A DNA stretch of 64,000 nucleotides, taken from the NCBI GenBank assembly GCA_020736575.1, contig JAGPYM010000015.1:744001-808000 (forward strand), read 5' to 3'. Under the pieces are notes generated by a model. The model saw only the letters and a list, made by a program, of their open reading frames with translations, made no database searches and was not told where the DNA came from. The DNA is from Thelonectria olida. Lineage: Eukaryota > Ascomycota > Sordariomycetes > Hypocreales > Nectriaceae. Position numbers and translations under genes: made by a program. Positions 15,532-62,251 of this stretch are shown in pieces (within the stretch, counting starts at the first letter, position 1; each line of letters opens with the position of its first letter).

Positions 15532-17337
15532 CTACCTCAAAGGTATCGTCTCTATATGGGGATCGCCTTTAAGCATTTCACCAAACATGATGCCGTGAAC
15601 ATATGCCTCTCCAACAACTGAATACGAGCCATCGCCCCGAGGTCGTAATAGTATTGGTACTTTGGCACCCAGCATGATGCAAATCTCGTCACCAGCTTGT
15701 ACGTAGGAGGGACACAAACCCACAAACCCTTGAGAGCTGAGAAACGGACGGCGTGAATGGAGACGGTGCAGAGAGAACCTGAACCAGTCTTCATCCTCGC
15801 TCGACTGACTCCCTTCTTTCGTCTGAGAGTCGGTGCTGCTGCCGTCGACTGACGCCAGTAGCGCCCTGCCAGCTTCTACGTAGTAGACAAGATCATCGAC
15901 AAACACATCGGCCACCTGATCCGGAAGGTAACCACCGTCCACGGCGGCGATGCGAAGTGCCTCGACCCACTCCTCGTTTGCTTTGATGCGGGTAGACTTC
16001 TTGCAGAAGCCCATAATGTGATTGACAAATGCCAGCGCCGAGCTGGAATCCAAGGGGCTGAGCCAGTCGGGGTCCCAGACGTGGCTGAACTCCTTGATCC
16101 TGTCGACAAAGAAACCCCGTAGCTTCAGCAGCCCGGGCTCGGGCATCAGGACTTCCTGCCTGGAGTAAGTGTCCCCTGAAGCGGAGAATTTACACGACCA
16201 TGGCGGCTGGGCAACCGGGCGGCGGATGTGCATGCTCCAGTCCGGAACCCAACTTGGAAGCTCACTGAGCTCGCGAGGAGACTGACAAAAGATCAGGGTG
16301 TCAATATACCCCTGCCTCAGAAAGTACACGGCCGCCTCCGTGTACACCTCCTCGCACGTCTTAGAATAGTCAGGAAACGCCGGAAAGCTGTCGGGATCAG
16401 TCGCAAGGTTCAGGAGAGAAAAGACCCTGTCACGCGAGTCAGACGTGAGCGGATGGTTGTAGTCGCATTCGAGAGCCAGCGAGGTAGATAGAACCGTGAT
16501 GAATGGGGTTTGGTTGTGCGTCACGTCTTGATCGCGGTTGCGGAACGTCTCGCGGCGGACGACGACGTTTTCGACAAAGCTTCGCCCAGGACAACTGTCT
16601 CTCATGGTAATGCTCTTTGCCATTTCATAGAACTTGGCTAAGCTTTCGCTTTCTGGCGTTTGGTCCATTTGGCTGGGGTCCCAGGCGAGGATCGTGTACA
16701 CTACGTCGCCGTCAATGGACGAGTTTCCGCAGGCAATGGTAACGTGCTGGGCCACGGCGTACTCCTGTATCACCCAGAGTCGTTTCCAGTACGGCTTGTC
16801 ACAGAACATGGCAAAGGCTGCTTTGACCTTGAGGGCGTCGTCTTGGTTTGTTGGGATGTGCTCCAGTGATTTCCAATCCTCATTTTGAACGGCGGTCCCA
16901 ATCGCCTGCATGAACTTGAACAGCAGGTCGCTGTGTGCAAACTCGACACCGAGCCAAGTCACAATTTTGATTGCTCGCTCGTACGTGTCTCGCATTTGCT
17001 GCACCTGGGAGCTCTTCTCCTTGTCGTCGTCCTGGTTGATGCACAGCTGGTCAACCCAGACGTACTGCGAATGGTAGCCGTGCTTGAGATGTTGCAGAGC
17101 CTGCTCGACGGTGTCACTTATGAGACACTCTTTTCCCCAAACGACGATGCGCCGCGTTTGTATGTGGCTCTCCCAGGCATAGGATAATGCGATGTACGAA
17201 GGGCAATCATTGCGATGCCAAGTTTCGAGATCGCAAGTGACGAGCCCATTGGCTGTTGGCTGTGGGTGGATCTTGAGGAGACGAAACTGATCTGCGTCCA
17301 GCGAGGGGTGGGTATGGTCGTATCTGAAGGGATCCAT
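15532..17337 (-). CDS. HET-domain (heterokaryon incompatibility) protein (601 aa, intronless)
   Basis: The N-terminal HET domain carries its three blocks: YIALSYAWES (about residue 45), QYVWVDQLCINQDD (about residue 90) and MRDTYERAIKIVTWLG (about residue 115). HET proteins drive programmed cell death when incompatible fungal individuals fuse, usually together with a partner such as an NLR protein. The C-terminal 400 residues have no motif I can name. The start at 17337 (MDPFRYDHTHPSLDADQFRL) is preferred over an in-frame codon at 17451, because HET proteins normally begin shortly before this point. It lies head-to-head with a NACHT-ankyrin gene, ATG to ATG 372 bp. Confidence 0.93.
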   Translation of the reverse strand: MDPFRYDHTHPSLDADQFRLLKIHPQPTANGLVTCDLETWHRNDCPSYIALSYAWESHIQTRRIVVWGKECLISDTVEQALQHLKHGYHSQYVWVDQLCINQDDDKEKSSQVQQMRDTYERAIKIVTWLGVEFAHSDLLFKFMQAIGTAVQNEDWKSLEHIPTNQDDALKVKAAFAMFCDKPYWKRLWVIQEYAVAQHVTIACGNSSIDGDVVYTILAWDPSQMDQTPESESLAKFYEMAKSITMRDSCPGRSFVENVVVRRETFRNRDQDVTHNQTPFITVLSTSLALECDYNHPLTSDSRDRVFSLLNLATDPDSFPAFPDYSKTCEEVYTEAAVYFLRQGYIDTLIFCQSPRELSELPSWVPDWSMHIRRPVAQPPWSCKFSASGDTYSRQEVLMPEPGLLKLRGFFVDRIKEFSHVWDPDWLSPLDSSSALAFVNHIMGFCKKSTRIKANEEWVEALRIAAVDGGYLPDQVADVFVDDLVYYVEAGRALLASVDGSSTDSQTKEGSQSSEDEDWFRFSLHRLHSRRPFLSSQGFVGLCPSYVQAGDEICIMLGAKVPILLRPRGDGSYSVVGEAYVHGIMFGEMLKGDPHIETIPLR

Positions 17338-17709
17338 GCTGCAATGTGCGCGGCCTTGTATGCCACGACATGGAGGAGATGCAATCATGCAGGTAGTTAT
17401 GCAGACCAACAAGGCCAAAGAAGGGGTGGCCGCGGGGGCTACATTGCTCACCTCAGGCGTGCTGAGGCTTGTAGCATGGATCGTCCTGTCAGCACCGCCA
17501 CGTCAGCAAACAGTAGTGATCATCCCTGCTCTTCAGCTTACCAAATCGGCGTCTGAAACATGACTACCGTGAATGAGGTGGAGCTGTGTGCTGCCTGACG
17601 CTCACTTCGCTTACACCCTCAATGTCGTGAGAAGAAATAGATCCATGAATGTGTATGTATAGTATGCCCTCCATCATTCACGACAGCATCAATACCATAA
17701 TCATCCATT
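17338..17709. promoter_or_regulatory. Divergent promoter between HET-domain and NACHT-ankyrin genes
   Basis: This 372 bp gap separates the two start codons, so any co-regulation of the pair would be encoded here. The plus strand contains a TATA-like stretch near 17657-17662, about 50 bp before the NACHT start. No other site is claimed. Confidence 0.4.
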
Positions 17710-18630
17710 ATGCCAAAATCTGCAAATACAGCAGATGAATACGACTTTGTCGATCATCAAGACACAGAGCTCAGCCCCGACGTCGTCGCCCAGATCCGCG
17801 AATGGCTTCAACCCACCGATTATCTGGCCGAGTCTGGCGAGTTTCGTCGCCACCTCTTGTCGCAGGCTCCCGGCACCGGGCTTTGGATCTGCAAGACAGA
17901 CGAGTATCAAAAATGGCACGATTCTCCAGACCACGGCAGCCTCTGGATCAAGGGCGTCCCAGGAGCTGGCAAGTCGGTCATGGCAGCGTCCATCATCCAG
18001 CATCTGCGCACGACTGAGGACTGTCCCGTGCTCTTCTTCTTCTTCCGCAACATTGTCGCAGCCAATTTCTCGCCGCGAGCTCTCATCAAGGACTGGCTCG
18101 CTCAGCTTCTGCCCTACTCTCCCAAGCTTCAATTCGCACTCCGGTCTCGTCTAGACACCAATCCAGCCGAAACGTCGGACAACGATCTGATTCAGCTTTT
18201 CCTCGATGGAGTGTCGTGTGTGCCAAAGGTCTACTGCGTGGGAGATGCTCTTGATGAAATGACAACCGATAGCATGCCATTTCTCGACAAGCTGAACGGT
18301 CTGGCTACGTATCGTCCTCGTTCGCTCAAATTGCTCATCACCAGTCGACCCAAGCAGCACCTGCAGAGTGCACTGCGGGACTCGTCGATAGTGCACGTCA
18401 GCCTCCAACAAAGGCTTGTTGATGCCGACATCCTCTCGTATCTCAATCACCGGTTTGACGAAGCCCCAAACTCCGAGTCGCATCGCCAAATCAAACACCG
18501 CGTCATCGACATGGTCGCGAGACGGTCTGAGGGCTTGTTTCTTTATGCAAAACTTTGTATTGGCCTGGATACGGCGATCCAACACCAGAGATCCGCAAGA
18601 CGTCGTTCCCTGGAGTCACCAGCATTGTGA
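17710..18630 (+). pseudogene. NACHT NTPase part of an NLR-type gene, cut short
   Basis: This open frame of 306 residues holds a linker with TDYLAESGEFRRHLLSQAPG, the P-loop GVPGAGKS (residues 82-89) and a Walker B-type stretch YCVGDALDEM (about residues 177-186). Sensor-type TSRP follows, and then the conserved SEGLFLYAK segment that ends the NTPase lobe in this family. It then runs into 20 unrelated residues and a stop. The winged-helix and linker part expected next (well over 100 residues in relatives) is missing, and ankyrin repeats begin within 100 bases in another frame. An intron cannot repair this: the only GT...AG pairs in the overlap are about 20-35 bp apart. I read it as an internal deletion with frameshift. 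Intact relatives act as cell-death sensors. Confidence 0.8.
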
Positions 18631-18632
18631 GA

Positions 18633-20900
18633 ATGCTTCTCGATGCTAATGCCGACGTTGCCGTTGTTGACAAGCATGGTTTTACGGCGCTGGACGTTGC
18701 CCTCCAAAAAGGCTGCCCCGAAGCCGCCGAGGCTCTTGGTGCAGATGACAAGCTCTTCGCGCTGGCAACAGAGAAGCTGGAGAGGGACGAGAGGACTGCG
18801 AGACAGGCTGCACAGATTCGGCAGTACATGAGGACTCAGATCATGCTGATGCAACCACGGTCTTCTTTGGATATCCTGGGTCAAGATCAGGTCATCTTTC
18901 ACCACATTCTGGAAAAGCCTTGGCTGTATCTCGAGCTTCTTACATGCGAGGACGCCGCCAAGATGATAAACCAAGGCTTCAAGGCTATTCAAGGCTTCGA
19001 CAATAATCTCGAAAATGAGTCATACTATGCCGTTCTTGCGGAGCTCATGAAGCCTGGTCATTCGCTACTGGTCGAGCGCGTGCCTGACCTTGTGCGACAT
19101 TACAGCGATCATATATCCTTGGAGGTAATGCGGAAGAAGGAGAAAGAACTCCAGAATTCAGGCAAACTCTCCCCCTGTTTCACAGAGCCCTTTACCGCAC
19201 TCCAGCTAGCATGCAAGTCGGAAGAACCCAATATGCAGACGGTGCAAGTTTTGGTGGAAAAGCTCCATGTCAGGGTCAACGAACCACCTGCACTCCGGCC
19301 CCCCCATTTCTCATTCTTGACGGGCAAGGCTTTGCATCTGCTGGCGGAAGCGGACAACTGGTGGCAACTAGAGGCAATGAGATATCTGCTCGCCAACGGA
19401 GCCGACGTCAATGCACGGAATGAGGACGGCCAAACGCCACTTCACATTGCCGCACGCGGAGTCCTGTTTGACGTCTGCAGGCTCAAGGGATACTGGAGAC
19501 ACGCTGCCGTGCGCATTCTTCTAGCAAACGGAGCCGATATTACCATTCTCGACCACCTGGGCAACCCGCCCCTTCACAACTCGTCGGGCGCGCCAGACAT
19601 TATGCGGGAGCTTCTTCGCAACGGCGCCGATATGGCGGCTGGGGCCGAGAGCCCGTTGTTCAGCGCCATTCACGACCAGAATCTCGCGGCCTTGAAGATC
19701 CTTCTTGATCATGGACTGAGTGTCAACACCCTTTTCAAGGGGCGTCATTGCAGAGACTTGCATTGGGCGCTGAAAAACGAGCGCAATGTGTACGCGCTCT
19801 TGTGTGCTAGCTTTGGTGGAAAGTTGAACACCCACGTCAAGAATTCGGTGCCGTTGCTTCGTTGCCTTGTCGAGCGAGGAGCTGATTTGTATCTGCCGTT
19901 GAGCGACACCGAAACACTGATTCACTTCCTCTTTGAACACGCAGACCATGAGGTCCTGGACGCGCTACTTCAGGAGCCATGCGCGTCTCGAATCGACTTC
20001 AACCGTCATGACCAACGAGGCCGCACGGTGTTGATGTCTGCCTGTAGCTGGCAAGAAGTCTTGCCTGGATATAGAACCGGTGGCCATTTCTATCACTCGG
20101 GAACAAAGCCCACCGGGCCGCCCCTGCGCATTCTGGATCTCGGTGCGGATGCCACGTTGGTTGATGACGAGGGGAAATCAGCACTACATCACCTGCTGGA
20201 TAACCCCAGAGTGCCTGACGAAGTTGTCGCCCAGTTCATCAATCGCGAGGAAGTTGCCCCTACACTCTCGACGAGGAGCAAAGATGGATTCTTGCCGTTC
20301 CATTGCGCGCTTCGCACTCTCCGTCCCGGAATCTGCGACTTGCTGATCTCCAAGGGCGCGAGCCTGTTCGAACCAGACCCGAATGGTCTCACGACCCTGC
20401 ATCACATTGCGACCCAGTGGTACCAACTCAGTCGGCCTACAACCGTCGGCGACGATGTGAGAATGGAATTTGAACTTCCTGGCGAATACTTCGATGGGTG
20501 TCTTGGGCTCTGGCAACGGTTCCTAGCAGAAGGCGGCTCCGTCAATGCGGCCGACAACGATGGCAATACCCCGCTGCACGAGTACCTGTTGTCCCGGGAC
20601 AAGCTGAAGCGTCGGGGTGACTCAGGTGTGTGCCACCTCGACCACTACGAAAAGTTCTTTCCGCCAAGCAGCGACGTCGACGTCTTTGCTGCGAATCACG
20701 CCGGCGACACAGCGCTGCATGTCATTGCGAGACGAGATAAAGCTCACAACAGGGACTCGGAGCATGACAAGGCCCTGTTCCGGGCGATGATGGATAAGGG
20801 ACTGGATCCGCTGAAGGAGGATGCCAGGGGGCGAAGTGCGCTAGATGTTGCGAGTGCGTGTGACAAGGACGATATTGTTGGCATGTTGGGAAGGGGTTAG
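18633..20900 (+). CDS. Ankyrin-repeat protein, C-terminal part of the broken NLR gene (755 aa from first ATG)
   Basis: The frame is open from 18555, but the first ATG is at 18633. Ankyrin signatures are spread over the whole length: NADVAVVDKHGFTALDVAL near the start, NGADVNARNEDGQTPLHIAA, NGADITILDHLGNPPLH, ADATLVDDEGKSALHHLL, DPNGLTTLHHIA, VNAADNDGNTPLHEYL and AANHAGDTALHVIA. The last unit is ARGRSALDVASACDKDDI. A helical, non-repeat region (about residues 75-200) separates the first repeat from the rest. In intact genes these repeats are the sensor half of a NACHT-ankyrin protein. Here they are in a different frame from the NTPase at 17710, overlapping its end. The protein may be made alone from 18633, or the locus may be dead; the long stop-free frame argues for recent damage. 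Confidence 0.72.
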   Translation: MLLDANADVAVVDKHGFTALDVALQKGCPEAAEALGADDKLFALATEKLERDERTARQAAQIRQYMRTQIMLMQPRSSLDILGQDQVIFHHILEKPWLYLELLTCEDAAKMINQGFKAIQGFDNNLENESYYAVLAELMKPGHSLLVERVPDLVRHYSDHISLEVMRKKEKELQNSGKLSPCFTEPFTALQLACKSEEPNMQTVQVLVEKLHVRVNEPPALRPPHFSFLTGKALHLLAEADNWWQLEAMRYLLANGADVNARNEDGQTPLHIAARGVLFDVCRLKGYWRHAAVRILLANGADITILDHLGNPPLHNSSGAPDIMRELLRNGADMAAGAESPLFSAIHDQNLAALKILLDHGLSVNTLFKGRHCRDLHWALKNERNVYALLCASFGGKLNTHVKNSVPLLRCLVERGADLYLPLSDTETLIHFLFEHADHEVLDALLQEPCASRIDFNRHDQRGRTVLMSACSWQEVLPGYRTGGHFYHSGTKPTGPPLRILDLGADATLVDDEGKSALHHLLDNPRVPDEVVAQFINREEVAPTLSTRSKDGFLPFHCALRTLRPGICDLLISKGASLFEPDPNGLTTLHHIATQWYQLSRPTTVGDDVRMEFELPGEYFDGCLGLWQRFLAEGGSVNAADNDGNTPLHEYLLSRDKLKRRGDSGVCHLDHYEKFFPPSSDVDVFAANHAGDTALHVIARRDKAHNRDSEHDKALFRAMMDKGLDPLKEDARGRSALDVASACDKDDIVGMLGRG

Positions 20901-24192: not shown

Positions 24193-25680
24193 ATGACCGA
24201 AACTTCAGAGCCATCAACGGCAGCGGCCGAGCCCAGACCACTCATTCTCCTTGGTGATGGCAGCTGGTGCGGCCGCGAGACCGACACCAAATCAAACATC
24301 TATCTGCTGGCCAAAATGGTCGGTATCGATATAGACAACGTCAACGACACGGACGTGCACGATATGGGTGACAGGGCGTGGTACATTCACGGTGTTGGGC
24401 TTGGGAGTACGTTCCTTGAGTAAGTCGCCGACAAAGTGACGAGGTTGGCCATATCAATCGCTAAATGATGTAGTTATGTCTTTAACGGAATCACGGCCCA
24501 AGACATTGCGATGCAGTGCATAACAGCCTACAAATTCATTGTTGATCACTACACCTATCCTGATCGCCAGATCTGGATGTTTGGCCTTTCCAGGGGTGCA
24601 TATATGGTGCGGTCAGTTGCCGGTATGATCAACAATTGTGGCATTGTCAAGCAAGTCAATAACCCAGACGGATCCGTGAATGAAGAAGAGACGAAGCTCC
24701 TCTGCCAACAAGTTTACAGAATTTACCGCTCCGATGACCCCATCAACGACCCTCACTCGACTGAGTCGGTAAAGTTCCGTCAGAAGGCGAGTTGGCCACT
24801 GATCGGTGACGAAGAAGAGAAAGGCCCCAGATTGCTACCGCCCGTCAAGTTCCTGGGCCTGTTTGACACTATCGGCAGTCTGGGGATTCCGGATTTTGTC
24901 GGTGGCGTGGGGCTGGACTGGCCTCAGTTCCATGATCAAAACGTCTCGACCGTAGTCGACCTTGTCTACCACGCTGTCTCCCTGCACGATGATTTCTACA
25001 TCTTCCCTCCATGTCTTGCCAAGCGGAAAAAACACGAGGACAAGTCCGACGACTTTGGAATCACCCAGCAGTGGTTCCCCGGCGTGCACTATGACCTGGG
25101 CCGACAACGGTTCCGCTTCTTTCGCATGTTTGGTGGTGGGCTCTTGGAACGACTCTTGGCAAGGTGGATGTGGGCGAACAAGGTCATTGAGCCAAACGAG
25201 GTGCTTTCAGACCTAGTGCTGAAGTGGATGCTCGAGGCTATCAGGAAGAACGATCCAAGCGGGCAAGTCATCACAACTACAAGAGTTGACCAAGAGATCG
25301 CGGCGGCCAAGCGGAAAATTAGCTCCCCAAGCCGGCGGACTGGCCATGGAGACGTGTACAAGAACATCATCGAATATGGCCCATTTGGCAAAGCGATTGT
25401 GGGCATCTTGACGACACTTTCTGGCGATAGATGGCGGACAAACCAGATCTACCAACTCTTCTTTGCGCTGCGGGATCGTCTCATTGCTGACCCCAACGCG
25501 CGGGTCTACGACTACATGGAGGCCGATGCATCCATTCCGGAAGCACATGGTCTTACTGTTGAGCAACTGGCAGGAATCGACAGGGCGAGATATCCGTCGC
25601 AAACCTATCAGGCTTGGAGATTGTGTAACCGCTTGCCGAGTCAGGGATCGAACATTGGTCCAGGCACCGGGGGAAACTAG
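24193..25680 (+). CDS. DUF2235 / Tle1-like alpha-beta hydrolase (477 aa, 2 exons)
   Basis: Exon 1 is 24193-24419 and exon 2 is 24474-25680. The start LILLGDGSWCGRETD corresponds to the 'DGTWN' opening of DUF2235. The nucleophile motif is GLSRGAY (Ser115), the acidic residue lies in FLGLFDTIGSLG, and a His is available in the later VYHAVSLHDD and PGVHYDLG segments. The Tle1 family in bacteria comprises type VI secretion phospholipases; fungi have many uncharacterised relatives believed to be soluble serine hydrolases. No signal peptide or membrane anchor is seen. Joining the exons gives FLDYVFNGITAQDI, as expected for the family. Substrate and pathway are unknown. Confidence 0.88.
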
Positions 25681-54420: not shown

Positions 54421-57320
54421 CTACAAGTCCAGATCAGGGTTGAACTCGAGCGCGACCCAAACATCGACATTAGGGCCATCGCCGGCCTGCCACTTGTGGT
54501 AGGGGTAGGACACCACATTGTCTTTGCCCCGGACAAGGTTGCCGTACGAGTCCCGATTCCACATGCCGCCGTGCTCATGCAGCCTGGGAACGGGTACATG
54601 CTCGAAGCGATCCGCGTCAGTCCCGGTAGGCACGTCGGGAGGTGAGATGAGGCGAGACATGCCTCCGTTGCCAGTTCCGGGGGAGAGGCAGATGTGAAGC
54701 TCCTCGAACATGGCGTCGCTGTGGTTATGCGCTCCGCAATTGACCTTGGTTCCTATTCGCGTCATGTGGTTAGACTCGTGCTTCTTTTATAAAGACAAGG
54801 TTGGAGCAAGGGGAGCATTACCGGCAGTCCAGAACTGCATGTGGCAAATCTCGGACTTGTCATCAATAAAGCGGAAATAGAACCCGGTGAGGTTGTAAAA
54901 GTCCAGGCCCTTGAACGAGCCTCCCCACCAGAGATCCTCAACTTTGATGAATCCCAGCGATGGGGGTTGGAGGCCGAGCTTGCTTGTGTCCATGGTGAGT
55001 TTCACGGGGACGTCTGCCGCCGAGGCATATTCGCCAGGGTTTCCTAGGGGATCGAAGCGCAGAATGATGGCACCCTTTTTTGCGTCTGCAGTAAGACTCT
55101 GGTCGTCGCTGGTTACAGGTTCGACCGCGGGGAACCCAGCATCCGCAAGGGGTCGACGGACGGTTGTTGTGTCGGAAGCCGATCCGTAGATAACCTTGAT
55201 ACCCTGTCCCGGAAGAAGCGGAATCTTGCTGTTCTTGGGATGGGCCTCGACGCTGATGGCGTAGTTTGCAATCTCAATCAGAGGCGACTGGTAAGCAGTC
55301 TTTAGGTCCGCGGGATGGGCGAGATAGATCATGCCTTCATTGTCCCAGATGGTAGAGACGATAGGAGCCGAACTTGGGGCTTCGCTCGCGGCAACCGTCT
55401 GATTCAGGTGCAGAGTTGTGACGGGCTTTGGTTCCTCATTGTTCTCCGTGATGGTATATCCAATGGAGGCGACGTCAAGCTTGCCAGCTCCGCCAAAGTC
55501 ACTGATGTTGTTAGATCGTCGTTGGAACTTGTGATGAAATGGCCTGACTCACCCAACGGCGATATGAACCGAGGACTCATCAGCAATCCTCCATTTGGCA
55601 AACAAGCCCTTCTCGATATCGATGACCTTGTAGTACATGATGCCCTGCAAGAATATGTTAGTCAATCTATGTGGTCGTTAAAAGTCTTAGTCACATACCT
55701 TGTTTGGGTTGAAACCAGGTTGCGCCTACAAAGACTACTTGTTAACACTCACTCGACCCTTGAGCTTAGATTAGTTACCAACCGGGATAGCATTGCCGTT
55801 CGAATCTCGGTCTAGAGGACCAAAGAGAGCGACAAGGAACTCGTCGTCTCCATCGCCTACCTTGCAGTTAGCGGCTGGACCAACAATAGCATTAAGAACG
55901 TGGACTGCTTGCCATCGAAATCTCCGCACACGACGAAGTGACCGGGTCCATCTCCCCTCTTCTGACGTTGGTTCGGGGTTCCATAGACGTCCAGGACGTG
56001 TCGCTTCCACTTGGCACTCTTCATTCTACGGCTGGTCTTGGTGTAGACACAAGCCGCAATACCATCCAAGGGGTCAAGAGTTGCGATATACGCAAATGGA
56101 TCGTCGCCCAGCTTACCTACATCAGCACATCCTGTACCCCAGTGATCTCCACTACCTGGTGTCTCTGATGAGGCAGACTGTCTTGCTTCTTTCGGCTCTC
56201 CGATGCCGATGAGTTCGCGCTTCCAGGTGCCATCCTCATGGTACAACCACGTGGTGCCTTCTCTGGACGAGATGATCATCGAATCAAGGCCATCGAGGCC
56301 ATTGAACCTGTTGTCAAATCGTCAGTAAACTCGCAAGGACTGCCCGAAATCATGTCTTTGAAGCTCACTTTTTTGTAGTGATTTCGTGGATAACAGTAAA
56401 GTTGCTGTCATCAATAACGTCACGCTGCCATTCGGTGCTATAATGAGTTTAGAGAAGCTCCTGAGCCTTCAAAGAGGCTTCTACTTACGCCTCGAGAACA
56501 TTCTCCGGAGCCTGGAAACGGATGATGGGGATGGGCGTGGTCTAAGAAGCTCATCAGATACCGACATGACTTTCAAGAGCGATCCAACCGGCCTACCTTG
56601 TCGTGAGCGCCATGGATCACGGATGCGGCGACGATTTCAAGGAAAGACCTATATCCGTCAATATTGCTAATCATTTGCGTCAAACTGGTGTTATTCCTCA
56701 CTTCTGAGTGAAATATCCAGCCTTCATTCGGTGCATGGCGGGCCATCGGCCGATCTTCCGCTGCTTCCATGGACCAGATCCCAGCTTGTCCCGACCAGGG
56801 TTTTCAAACCAGGAGATCCATCCGCCTTGCATATCACACTCAAGCATGGACGGGCCGTAGTCGTGGCAAACGACCAAATCCATCAACCCATTCTTGGTGA
56901 CGTCGACAGGGAGGACCGCAACTGGAGAGCTGAGCTTTGCAATGACGTGGTTGGTCCAAGCTAAGGCAGGTTCTTAGTATGGACAATGTTTGAACGATGA
57001 AATGAGTGCATACGCTTCGTGAGTGCCTCCGCATTGTCTCCGGTTTGACCGCGGGCCTCATTTTCGGCAATCGGGTTGTCTAAGAATTCGACAACGCCTG
57101 AGACAAGGCCCGAGCTGCTGTCTTGTTAGCCTCCATATTGGTGAGCGATATTTAACGGTACATACGTGATGAGGCCAGGAACTCGGTCCTTGTCACTGCA
57201 ACGGAAAGACTCGACCCAATAGCCATCCTGACTTCGGGCCTCAATAACAGAGCTGCCAAAGGACGGAACAGTCACAGCAGCAGGCTGACCAGAACGGTCG
57301 GGGCCCTTAGACATAACCAT
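54421..57320 (-). CDS. Aldos-2-ulose dehydratase / 1,5-anhydro-D-fructose dehydratase homologue (769 aa, 12 exons)
   Basis: Exons in order are 57166-57320, 57014-57117, 56702-56960, 56597-56666, 56489-56541, 56369-56437, 55913-56307, 55783-55856, 55699-55725, 55553-55644, 54822-55501 and 54421-54752 (2310 nt, frame kept). The first 400 residues are FG-GAP/propeller-like, with DVTKNGLMDLVVCHDYG and CGDFDG-DGDDEFLVALFG. The second half has cupin-type metal sites: GAHNHSDAMFEELH (His668, His670, Glu676, His679) and HEHGG (His718, His720). The sequence fits the basidiomycete enzyme that dehydrates and isomerises 1,5-anhydro-D-fructose to microthecin and glucosone to cortalcerone. It ends at VALEFNPDLDL, so the C-terminal lectin-like domain of that enzyme is absent. 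No signal peptide. One intron (55857-55912) is GC-AG; the donor at 55782 is weak. It is divergent from the glucan lyase. Confidence 0.85.
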
Positions 57321-57423
57321 GGTTGCTAACGCTCCCACAGAGGACAAGAAATGCGTAAAGGATGAAGTAACCGAGGGTTGTGGATATTTGGTCTAGTTGG
57401 CTCGCTCCATGGGCACAGCACCA

Positions 57424-57430
57424 TTTTATA
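57424..57430 (-). promoter_or_regulatory. TATA-like element of the dehydratase gene
   Basis: Read on the minus strand it is TATAAAA, 104 bp upstream of the ATG at 57320. Confidence 0.5.
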
Positions 57431-57828
57431 CATATTTCTTAAGCTGTCCTGAGTGTGACTCCCGCAAGACAAATCAAGTTTTCCCCTTCAAGCGATAGGG
57501 GGGCGGGAATGAAAGTAATTGCATCATACTACGTGTGTCTCGATGAGACATTCGCGAGCCTCTCAACTCCCCGCGTCGAAGTCAGACAATGCGAAGGACC
57601 GACATATGCAACCGAATCCAAGCAACATGACAACACGGTGTTTGTATTTATTCGCAATTGACCTATTAGAATATATTTACAACCACGAGGCTGGTTTTAC
57701 AGAGCCGTTCCGGGAATGTGAGTGATGCGTTGTTCATCTTTTGCTCGTTCCGGTGCGTTTTGAAAGTTCAGCTTATGCACAAGGTCGTATCCATTCTATT
57801 ATTAAGATTAATTACGGACACCGAGGTG

Positions 57829-57841
57829 CCGAGGGACTCGG
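57829..57841. promoter_or_regulatory. Inverted repeat CCGAG-N3-CTCGG, candidate zinc-cluster regulator site
   Basis: A perfect 5-bp palindrome with a 3-bp spacer lies inside the shared promoter. It forms a CCG-N7-CGG pair, like targets of Zn(2)Cys(6) proteins. The binding protein is unknown. Confidence 0.35.
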
Positions 57842-58344
57842 CAGAAACAGTAAGAGCACATACATTGCTTTCGGGAGTTCGCATATGCGTGGCAGAACTG
57901 CATTCCAACGAGCCTCCTCGATGTGTCCTATTGGCTACTACGCAGCTGATCGGCTTGCAAAAGGAGATTTTAGATCGCGGGGTAACGTGGCTGAGAAGGG
58001 AGAGCGGGAAGAAAACTGTATTTGAATCATGGCTTGCTGCATGGATTGTACGAGGATTACGAGAGTTGATTGCTTGCTTGTTTACTAAAGACCAATATGG
58101 GAACTTTCTTGCAATGCATTCGTCACCGGATCGCACTCGTCTCAGCAAATACCGCGATCAACATGAACTCTTGCCATATGAGCGATGTCCATTCATTCCG
58201 AGCAAACACGGCTCGGCGGTATGCCTCTCCAGACTTTGTCTGAGAATAATCTAATTTTACAGCTCAGCTACATCCGGACTGTCATGATGCATGTTGCAAT
58301 CTGGTCACATTCTATCAGGTCGTATAGCTCGACCTTGAACAAGT

Positions 58345-58350
58345 TATATA
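58345..58350 (+). promoter_or_regulatory. TATA-like element of the glucan lyase gene
   Basis: TATATA lies 103 bp before the start codon, followed by a pyrimidine-rich tract (tcttccttaataac). Confidence 0.5.
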
Positions 58351-58452
58351 CTCCTCTATCTGCCATCGATGGTCTCCTTCTGTTCTCATCATCACTATCA
58401 TTCACTCTTCCTTAATAACTAATTACAACAACCTCATCACCATCCAAGCACC

Positions 58453-61400
58453 ATGTCGGACCTCGAAGCAACCAAGCTCAGAGACCCTTACATCTTTGTC
58501 AAGGCCGACGACTTCTTCAAGGACGTTGATACGTCCGCGAACAAAGTCAAGCGACCTGCGACCATTGCCTACCGCGCCGCGGACCAGACTCTGGACGATG
58601 GCAGCAAGAACCCGGCCTGCAGTCACGGTCGTGTCTTCCGTTTCAACGATGACTCGTTGCTCTTGATCCAGTTCATGCGTCCCAGGGTGTGGAGGATTCG
58701 TTTTGATCCTAACAACCGCAAGGCTTCTGACTTTACGGATTTCAACACGTGAGTATCTCTACGTCATTCTTCATGGTTCAAAGCTGACCACTCACCAGTC
58801 GAACCATCATCCAAGATACTCTCACCCAGCTTATCAGCACCCTCGATGCCGTCGAGGGCGTCAACTGGGCCGTTGAAATGGTCGAGGACCCCAGGTACTA
58901 CATCCTGCAGTCCGTCCTGGACCCCGATACCGAGCAGCGAAAAGTGCAAGTCCAGCTCTGGATCCAGCGAGACCCCTTCCAGATCATTGCTGTCCGTGTT
59001 TTGACAAACCAAGTGCCTGCGGAGAAGCTACCGGAAATTCAGAACTTTGAATCCGACGCCATGAAGCAGCTGAGCCTCCCCACTACCAAGGGTGCCGAGG
59101 CTGCCATCATCTGGAAGACGGAGCCTAGAGGCTTGCAGTACAATGACTATGCCACTGTCCTCGCTGTGGAGAAGTCAGTCACGGCTGATTACATGGGTTT
59201 CGGAGAGCAGGGTGGCAAGGACTTCTTCAAGAAGAACACCTACATGAACTACTTCAGTATGTGAAACCATGGCAGCGTGAATGAAGGGTCACTAACAATG
59301 AGTCTGCAAGATTTCGACAACATGAGGTACCAGAACGTTTACGGTCAGGGGCCTCTCGATGACCGTGAGCCTCTCTACCACTCCGAACCTTTCTGGGTCG
59401 AGGTCGACTCTCACCCGGGATACCAATCCCAGATTGGAACCTTCATCGACAACTACTCCCACATCTGCGTCGATGTAGGCGTTAAGGACCCCAACGTCAT
59501 CCGCGTTGCAACCAGGTTCAACAGCTTCCACGCCATTGTCGTTGCCGGGGACAGCATGGAGGACCTCATCATGCAGTACACGTCCATTGTCGGCAAGCCC
59601 AAGCTCAAGCCCCGCTACGTGCTCGGATATCATCAGGCCTGCTATGGATACGATACCCAAGAGTCGGTTATCGAGGCCATTGACGAGTATCGCAAGGCCA
59701 ACATCCCCATCGACGGCATGCACATCGACGTCGACATGCAGGACGACTACCGTACCTTCACCATCGACAAGAGAGAGGGCCACTTCCCCGACCCAGTCAC
59801 CATGTTCAAGACGCTGAGGGACAAGGGCATCAAGTGCTGCACCAACATCACCCCGTACATCAACTCTGTTCCTCCCACACAAGGAGAGTATTCGACGCTT
59901 AAGGAAGGCCTCGAGGGGGATCTCTTCATCAAGGACCAGCGCGACTTGGATCCCTCGGCCCCTCACGCCCACCAGCAACGGTATATGGAGTGGGGTGGTG
60001 GAAACCAGTACTTCAGGGCTCCCATTTCCGACAGACCCGACTACTTTGAACCGGACCACTACGACTTTGGCCAGGTCTTCAACAGCGGCCAGCCGTTCCA
60101 CGGTGGTGTCTTCTATGGCTGGGGCAACGGACATCCCGGACACTACCCCAACCTGAACAACAAGGACGTTCGCAAGTGGTGGGGAAAGCAGTACAAGTAC
60201 CTCTTCGAGTGCGGCCTGGACTTTGTCTGGCAGGACATGACGTCTCCTTGTATTGCGGAGCAGTATGGCGATATGAAGTCGTAAGTTACATCTAACGCCC
60301 TCGCTTCAGCGGTCCTTCCATCTAACCATTTTTTTAGTCTGCCATTCCGACTTTTGCTTGACTCCGATGGCTGGTCGGGCGACCCAGACCGAGCCAAGCA
60401 GCGAAAGGCTATCGAGATCTGGTCTCTGTACAGCTACAACCTTCACAAGGCGACCTATCACGGCCTCAACAACATCCACAAGGTCAGCCCCCAATTGGCC
60501 TGGAGAGAGAACCGCCGCAACCTCATCATCGGCCGAGGCAGCTTCATCGGCAGCCATCGTTACGCTGGCCTATGGACGGGTGATAACTCGTCGACTTGGG
60601 ACTTCCTCAACATCTCTGTCGCCCAAGTTCTTTCCCTCGGGTTGTCTGGTATTACCATCTCGGGACAGGATGTGGGAGGATTCGAGTTCATCGATGGTGA
60701 GCGCGACTTTGCCAACCCCGAACTCCTGATCCGATGGTACTGCGCTTACTCCATGCTGCCATGGTTCCGGTAAGATTGTCACCCTTGGACACTAATTATT
60801 TTTGTACGCAAAGCTCACCAGGTGATAGAAACCACTACACCAAGAGACGTGATTGGATGGATGGCCCCCGCAAGGGCACGATGCGAAAGGATGGCAAGCT
60901 CTTCCAGGAGCCCTATGCTTATCAGAAGTTCTATGAGCAGAACCAGGACAAGTTCCAAGGGCGCGAAGCCATGCTGTATCGCGCCGTCCTCCCGATCTGC
61001 CGCTACTACATCCGTCTTCGATACAGCTTGATGCAGCTTCTCTACGATGCCATGTTCGAGAACATGATCACTGGACTCCCTATTGCTCGATCAATGGTAG
61101 GCCGACTCCCAGCACACCCAACGAATCGGGCAATTACTAACGCTGGGAATCTGATAGGCAATCACGGATGATCTTGACCGAACTCTCTTCGCCGATGATG
61201 TAAGTTTGGTGCCTCATCGCAAAAGGGTCTATCTAACCAGGATTGTTTTACTTGCAGAACAAACGCTTCCTTGGCAGCCAGTACTTCGTCCGCAAGGACT
61301 TGCTCGTGGCGCCCGCCCTGCTTCCCGAGAGCCAGCGCAACACGCGCAAGCTCTATCTCCCCTACCCCGACGACTGGTACCCCATGAACCTGCGACCCGA

Positions 61401-62251
61401 CGAGCCCATCGGTGTCGCGCTGAGCCCGCTCGTCGACGGTGGAAGCCACGTCGAGTATGGCTGCCACATCAGCGACCAGTACTCTCAGCTTCCATACGTC
61501 ACGCCCATGTATGTTCGAGAAGGTAATGCATCACCGCTTCTGCTGTTTCGGTTCACTGTGTTAATCCAGAGTATAGGTGCCATCATCCCCAAGGTGGAGG
61601 TCAGGGACTACATTCCGGACCCTTCGCTGCCCGCGCAAGATCCCAACCCGATCACTCTGCACGTGTATCCCGGAAAGGACAACGTATGTCATCGCACAAC
61701 GAAAGTCGACTACAGCCCTTGCTAACAGATTGCAGACGTACGACATGTTCATTGACGATGGAATCTCGCGAGACAGCGCTCCTACTCTGCGCAGCCAGGG
61801 CGGACAGGTGAACCCGGATGAGGTTCGCCGCACCAGGAGCGACCCCAAGGCCGCAGACAAGTACTGCAAGCTTGTTGTTGAGCAGGTGAGATTGCCCCGG
61901 AAGAATTTGCGAATGTGCAATGCTTTACGAACGAGAACTAACACATCGCCTTTCTAGAAAACGACCAAGTTTGCTTCCGAGGACTCGGCCGTCAGCTTCT
62001 CTCGCCGCCTGACCATCAAGTCTGCCTGGAACGAATACGGCGACGTGTCCAAGATTGTGGGCAACATGTACACGGTCGTCTTCTGGCACGACGTGTCTGT
62101 CAACCTCAGCTCCATCCAGCTCGTCTGCCAGAACAACCCGCAGTGGGAGACCAACGTTGGCTACCGCGCCACCATTGTCAAGATCCCCGTTGCCGATGCT
62201 CACAGTGCCAACGGAGTCGACATCCGCCTGCAACACAACAGCTCTATTTGA
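58453..62251 (+). CDS. Alpha-1,4-glucan lyase, GH31 family (1093 aa, 10 exons)
   Basis: Exons are 58453-58748, 58799-59256, 59311-60280, 60338-60769, 60829-61096, 61158-61199, 61258-61522, 61577-61683, 61736-61885 and 61958-62251 (3282 nt). The enzyme cleaves alpha-1,4-glucans from the non-reducing end, releasing 1,5-anhydro-D-fructose by elimination instead of hydrolysis. The GH31 catalytic Asp is in FVWQDMTSPCI (Asp560) and the acid/base Asp in WTGDNSSTW (Asp657). In GH31 glucosidases the first motif reads DMNEPS; DMTxPxI is the lyase form. Other lyase blocks are GYHQACYGYDTQESV, MHIDVDMQDDYRTFT and FRNHYTKRRDWMDGP. The length equals that of known fungal lyases. No signal peptide is seen, which points to intracellular glycogen as substrate. 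It is divergent from the dehydratase, which would use its product. One exon is only 42 bp. Confidence 0.95.

Follow-up and report, generated by a model that had tools for sequence, protein, structure and literature searches.

A head-to-head glucan lyase and aldos-2-ulose dehydratase-like gene pair in Thelonectria olida, a probable anhydrofructose unit

Here, we describe a head-to-head gene pair from the ascomycete Thelonectria olida that encodes an alpha-1,4-glucan lyase of family GH31 and an aldos-2-ulose dehydratase (AUDH)-like protein, and both genes splice to uninterrupted proteins. We consider it likely that the pair is a two-gene anhydrofructose unit, in which the lyase would act first and the AUDH-like dehydratase second, with both activities predicted from sequence. 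This reading draws on family membership, intact frames, catalytic motifs and the fact that the two genes are linked in many fungi, and further on bacterial lyases that are linked to genes for AUDH-type cupins and propellers. A previous sequence-only reading of this DNA had proposed a co-regulated pair under a shared promoter that turns glycogen into antimicrobial dihydropyranones for defence or stress, with microthecin as the dehydratase product; the lyase, the AUDH family and the functional coupling are upheld by our analysis, whereas co-regulation, the shared promoter, microthecin as the product and a defence role are not.

Results

Gene models of the pair

We analysed the T. olida genome (52.5 Mb, 165 contigs), with a focus on a stretch of 64,000 nucleotides, hereafter the window, at positions 744001-808000 of contig C57 (1,020,634 bases). 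The pair occupies 54421-62251 of the window, an interval bounded exactly by the stop codons of its minus-strand and plus-strand genes:

54421..57320, minus strand: AUDH-like gene, 12 exons, 763 aa, a propeller followed by two cupin domains (splicing, PDB and Pfam matches, tree)
57320-57166, 57117-57014, 56960-56702, 56648-56597, 56541-56489, 56437-56369, 56307-55913, 55856-55783, 55725-55699, 55644-55553, 55501-54822, 54752-54421, minus strand: exons of the AUDH-like gene
55857..55912, minus strand: GC-AG intron of the AUDH-like gene, GCAAGC...TAG (splicing; same junction in public model P0121)
57321..58452: intergenic region, 1132 bp between the two start codons, which would hold both promoters
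58453..62251, plus strand: alpha-1,4-glucan lyase gene (GH31), 10 exons, 1093 aa (splicing, PDB and Pfam matches, tree)
58453-58748, 58799-59256, 59311-60280, 60338-60769, 60829-61096, 61158-61199, 61258-61522, 61577-61683, 61736-61885, 61958-62251, plus strand: exons of the GH31 gene

All nine introns of the GH31 gene are of the GT-AG type and 50-72 bp long, and the public model P0001 agrees with our splicing at 99%, without 8 residues. The AUDH-like gene has eleven introns, one of them GC-AG and another with an unusual GTTGGT donor. The internal splices of public model P0121 are the same, including both odd ones, and its N-terminus, over the first two exons, is different and shorter; in our model these exons hold a conserved DGYWVE stretch. 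A frameshift near 55905 was considered and rejected, as the apparent change of frame is the GC-AG intron whose junction is also found in P0121.

The GH31 protein groups with glucan lyases

The GH31 protein matches the catalytic barrel PF01055 (3.6e-69) and the C-terminal domain PF21365 (1.6e-7), both above cut-off. Its top PDB match is the Gracilariopsis glucan lyase 2x2h (9.3e-49), followed by maltase-glucoamylase 9kz6 (1.3e-46), and for this protein the PDB score by itself hardly separates a lyase from a glucosidase. The DMTSPCI motif of the sequence-only reading was read correctly and lies in VWQDMTSPC at residues 557-565. Two catalytic positions align with 2x2h:

60234..60236, plus strand: codon of Asp560 in VWQDMT, aligned with the Asp of WQDMT in 2x2h
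60582..60584, plus strand: codon of Asp657 in WTGDN, aligned with the Asp of GDN in 2x2h

We take Asp560 to be the nucleophile and Asp657 to be the acid/base, and we presume that WQDMT, in place of the glucosidase-type DMNE at the nucleophile, is a mark of lyases, a reading that the tree also backs. WQDMT is present in 116 of the 120 best homologues, and DMNE is found in two GH31 proteins of the same genome (L001 and L002). A tree built from 39 rows places the GH31 protein in one clade with the Morchella vulgaris lyase row. Five own-genome GH31 proteins, whose end branches are very long and were flagged as such by the tool, are split off by a branch 4.9 long (support 100/100); the phylogeny agrees with the motif in favouring a lyase over an alpha-glucosidase. 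The protein is 41% identical to M. vulgaris Q9UVZ1, which we take to be a characterised alpha-1,4-glucan lyase, and shares with this enzyme and 2x2h the GH31 domains, the WQDMT and GDN motifs and the lyase clade, so that lyase activity is predicted for it.

The AUDH-like protein combines a propeller with a double cupin

Membership of the AUDH family, as proposed earlier, is confirmed by matches above cut-off to the AUDH propeller PF22301 (9.4e-72) and the AUDH cupin PF18637 (1.7e-101) on one chain. The sole solved structure matched at E values up to 0.001 is the Phanerochaete chrysosporium aldos-2-ulose dehydratase/isomerase 4a7k (8.7e-104), over nearly the whole query (residues 11-757 to chain residues 14-731). 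The T. olida protein shares the propeller, the double cupin and the cupin residues HNH, E and EHG with the P. chrysosporium enzyme (4a7k, 4a7y, 4a7z); these residues form a metal-type HxH...E motif with putative ligand roles and are invariant in five aligned rows. They lie in the last exon:

54421..54752, minus strand: last exon, second cupin, with HNHSDAMFEELH (from residue 662), LHEHGGMW (711) and YPYHKWQ (736) (alignment)

The T. olida protein ends with the second cupin, the match stopping at residue 757 of 763, whereas in 4a7k it stops at 731 of 900 and the chain runs on for about 170 residues; this C-terminal part, which is not known to be essential, is absent from the T. olida protein. 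Among three basidiomycete relatives whose C-terminal stretch was scanned, P0226 has a ricin-B-like match above cut-off, P0198 one below cut-off and P0196 none. Two other full-length AUDH-like proteins, P0192 and P0193, group with basidiomycete rows and apart from the ascomycetes (100/100).

Intergenic region, flanks and further copies

Contig C110 carries a diverged second head-to-head lyase/AUDH pair, and contig C129 a third lyase-like copy:

L023 1-2270 and 2275-6866 (C110:54001-64000): decayed second copy of the pair, 73-81% DNA identity to the window pair
L025 3626-7715 (C129), minus strand: third lyase-like copy, with 43-62% identity in the two pieces that match best

Between the window pair and the C110 copy, exons are 82-83% identical, introns 59-65% and the intergenic region 64%. 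The intergenic region shows no excess conservation between these two copies, and no conserved shared promoter was found in this comparison. The same difference between exons and the remaining sequence leads us to infer that both copies were long kept as genes and that the second decayed later. In the C110 copy, the lyase part breaks off around residue 385-393, and a stop lies within the match equivalent to the third exon of the window gene; the AUDH matches contain stops, some perhaps intronic, and the AUDH is interrupted on its 3' side by an element with integrase-type and reverse transcriptase domains. Stops are also present inside the matches of the C129 copy, where some may be intronic, and there was no AUDH match near this copy in 30 kb. 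Neither the second nor the third copy shows signs of RIP, as their indices are no different from those of the surroundings.

No third pathway gene was found beside the window pair among 20 stop-to-stop ORFs (16 in the window and 4 to its right), a scan that multi-exon genes could escape; five of these ORFs have no family match. The nearest to the left is F-box-like (below cut-off), and the nearest to the right are chitin-synthase-like and a HAD hydrolase. Elsewhere in the window, a trio of ORFs recalls fungal incompatibility gene sets:

15535-17502, minus strand: HET-domain ORF (family search; the three lie within 10 kb)
18531-20897, plus strand: ankyrin-repeat ORF
24469-25677, plus strand: Tle1-like phospholipase-domain ORF

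The pair is linked in many fungi

Linkage was called where lyase and AUDH rows lie on a contig of equal size among the best 120 rows of each homology search, and it could be seen because the rows carry the size of their contig. By this measure, lyase and AUDH share one contig in 18 of the 22 species found in both lists, T. olida being one of the 18, and in 11 of the 18 this contig is under 350 kb. Locus tags adjoin in Monosporascus (009768/009769) and Cercophora (11655/11656), and are two apart in Diplodia intermedia (009884/009886). Rows on different contigs were found for the remaining four species (Colletotrichum tofieldiae, Elsinoe australis, Camillea tinctor and Calocera cornea), where they may stem from different assemblies. 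Among the linked species are Sordariomycetes, Dothideomycetes, Pezizales (Tuber brumale, Kalaharituber) and a Tricladium; divergent orientation was established in the T. olida genome. This linkage, mirrored by bacterial gene neighbourhoods, supports the functional coupling of the two genes.

In Tricladium varicosporioides, where there are two linked pairs, the first lyase and the first AUDH are both placed with Nectriaceae and Monosporascus. The second AUDH of this fungus forms a pair with Lepidopterella (91/83), and the second lyase is found at the same open fork as that of Lepidopterella. Although several supports are modest, this is the pattern expected if the pair is inherited, or transferred, as one unit.

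Bacterial lyases have cupin and propeller neighbours

Among 56 bacterial lyase loci, a cupin gene on the same strand is present in 32, a propeller gene in 12 and both in 11; 24 have no cupin, 17 of these with at least 1.3 kb on either side. In loci such as L038, L060, L065 and L043, the lyase, a "hypothetical" cupin and a propeller stand side by side, as do the enzyme parts in the fungal pair. The bacterial genes lie on one strand with the AUDH parts as separate genes, whereas the T. olida pair is divergent and its AUDH fused.

The bacterial cupin was reached only through lyase neighbours, and a direct pattern scan of genome and viral contig sets confirmed no AUDH cupin in prokaryotes. When tested, it proved to have the fold of both AUDH cupins. 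Against PF18637 it stays under the cut-off of 25 bits (19.4 and 19.9 for L031 and L043, 16.3 for L084), and the cupins of L072, L081 and L078 have no match to this family. The bacterial family has 854 homologues, and 118 of the 120 listed have no Pfam domain.

We also sampled 148 genomes from the order of the Oscillatoria princeps genome that contains L060 (cupin E up to 1e-8, lyase E up to 1e-120). The cupin is found in nine, the lyase in ten and both in eight, with a cupin but no lyase match in one genome and a lyase but no cupin match in two. In all eight, the lyase and cupin genes adjoin on one strand at a distance of 53-211 bp, and their co-occurrence has a Fisher p of 8.5e-11, a value that includes the centre genome and is uncorrected for shared ancestry, with two of the eight looking very alike. 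The propeller is present in six genomes of the sample, five of which are among these eight. Phylum-wide the cupin is rare (one of 194 genomes, which is the centre genome). A search of 396 genomes of the phylum of L045 gave no match to the propeller family, which does not by itself show its absence.

Further gene groups accompany some lyases. A group of 128-aa SnoaL-like genes occurs in six of the 56 loci (L039 13299-13685, L040 13189-13575, L048, L049, L057 and L068), and in L040 and L039 it follows the lyase match at 138-248 bp; speculatively, its product is a candidate enzyme for an additional step, for example tautomerisation. The remote lyase loci L078, L081, L082 and L083, alphaproteobacterial by title, share a DUF993 gene (the family was tested on the member from L078) and an SDR-like group, and three of them also an aldo-keto reductase-like group (both judged by eye); this set is perhaps a catabolic cluster. 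The lyase subgroup of L066, L067, L075, L076 and L077 (Pseudomonas, acidobacteria and Telmatospirillum) has DMTDP in place of DMTTP and shares a 540-aa-type neighbour, of which the L066 member was tested and had no Pfam match.

Discussion

We propose that the GH31 enzyme would cleave an alpha-1,4-glucan, either glycogen or starch, in an elimination reaction that yields 1,5-anhydro-D-fructose, and that the AUDH-like enzyme, with a metal in its second cupin, would then remove water from anhydrofructose to give ascopyrone M, the cupin being the presumptive dehydrating part. The same enzyme may go on to isomerise ascopyrone M to microthecin. The lyase step is strongly indicated by family evidence, and homology together with linkage suggests the dehydration step. 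Neither of these points to microthecin, which may nevertheless be the end product. We infer substrate, metal use, cytosolic site and product for the fungal pair; no obvious signal sequence was seen by eye in the N-termini of the two proteins.

As stated in passages of PMC12441222, fungi convert anhydrofructose to ascopyrone and microthecin, with antibacterial activity. That paper also cites a study of the anhydrofructose dehydratase and the ascopyrone tautomerase of Anthracobia; to judge by title alone, the Anthracobia melaloma pathway follows the same substrate chain as that proposed here. This ascomycete precedent weakens the claim that microthecin is the product, yet microthecin is listed among Morchella constituents in an excerpt of PMC9016275.

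Alternatively, the unit might be catabolic or hoard carbon, with anhydrofructose and its products serving as a private carbon store or being degraded and any antimicrobial action incidental. We regard this as possible but rather unlikely, although it shares the enzymology of the anhydrofructose unit and the two readings are not exclusive. Part of PMC12441222 suggests that the pathway may serve to use carbon closed to others, and the DUF993 gene (one member tested) and the groups resembling SDR and aldo-keto reductases in some remote bacterial lyase loci would fit such a role. However, the partner conserved in fungi is the dehydratase, whose expected products are antibacterial according to the same passages.

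It is quite improbable that the AUDH-like protein mainly dehydrates glucosone from a pyranose 2-oxidase, with its place beside the lyase being secondary. The basidiomycete enzyme takes its name from aldos-2-uloses, and a 1992 title in the reference list of PMC11650716 names cortalcerone formation from glucose via pyranose 2-oxidase and aldos-2-ulose dehydratase. In Morchella importuna, glucan lyase and pyranose oxidase both had FPKM over 1000 and were both down in one sclerotial sample, according to an excerpt of PMC8093252, so that such lyases are expressed in ascomycetes and pyranose oxidase can be on simultaneously. T. olida itself has a pyranose 2-oxidase-like gene, which makes glucosone a possible substrate of the dehydratase:

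C13:1102065-1104069 (L087): multi-exon pyranose 2-oxidase-like gene (TIGR02462 and PDB matches)

The exon matches of this gene to TIGR02462 jointly cover positions 1-547, each under cut-off, and one exon matches pyranose 2-oxidase 2f5v at 1.1e-31. However, it lies on another contig than the pair, none of the 20 ORFs around the pair matched such an oxidoreductase family, and the recurrent partner in fungi and bacteria is the lyase. That the GH31 gene is an ordinary alpha-glucosidase, adjacent to the AUDH-like gene by chance, we reject as extremely unlikely: many GH31 relatives are automatically named alpha-glucosidase, maltase-glucoamylase nearly equals the lyase as a PDB match and the top NCBIfam match is alpha-glucosidase MalA (235 of 800 bits, far under cut-off), but the tree, the WQDMT motif and linkage with AUDH parts in fungi and bacteria argue against it.

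The preferred reading, a unit for anhydrofructose formation and dehydration, may extend beyond fungi. We tentatively suggest, at slightly less than even chances, that an anhydrofructose operon with AUDH as two genes exists in cyanobacteria and, here and there, in other bacteria. Its cupin would be the dehydratase that forms ascopyrone M, and the propeller, where present, would serve a later step (to microthecin), while fungi would hold the fused form. The bacterial part is more novel than the fungal pair and lies outside the earlier claim. Among the titles listed by our searches of open-access literature, none was on a lyase-AUDH gene pair or a bacterial anhydrofructose operon, and the pairing may be in print already, for example in reviews outside this search.

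Finally, our analysis ties two enzymes into one linked unit across several ascomycete classes and gives a bacterial cupin family a concrete candidate function. If the split reading is true, loci with the cupin only and loci with cupin and propeller would separate the two half-reactions of AUDH, so that dehydration and isomerisation could be studied apart, and the anhydrofructose route of glycogen use would be prokaryotic as well, reaching beyond fungi and algae.
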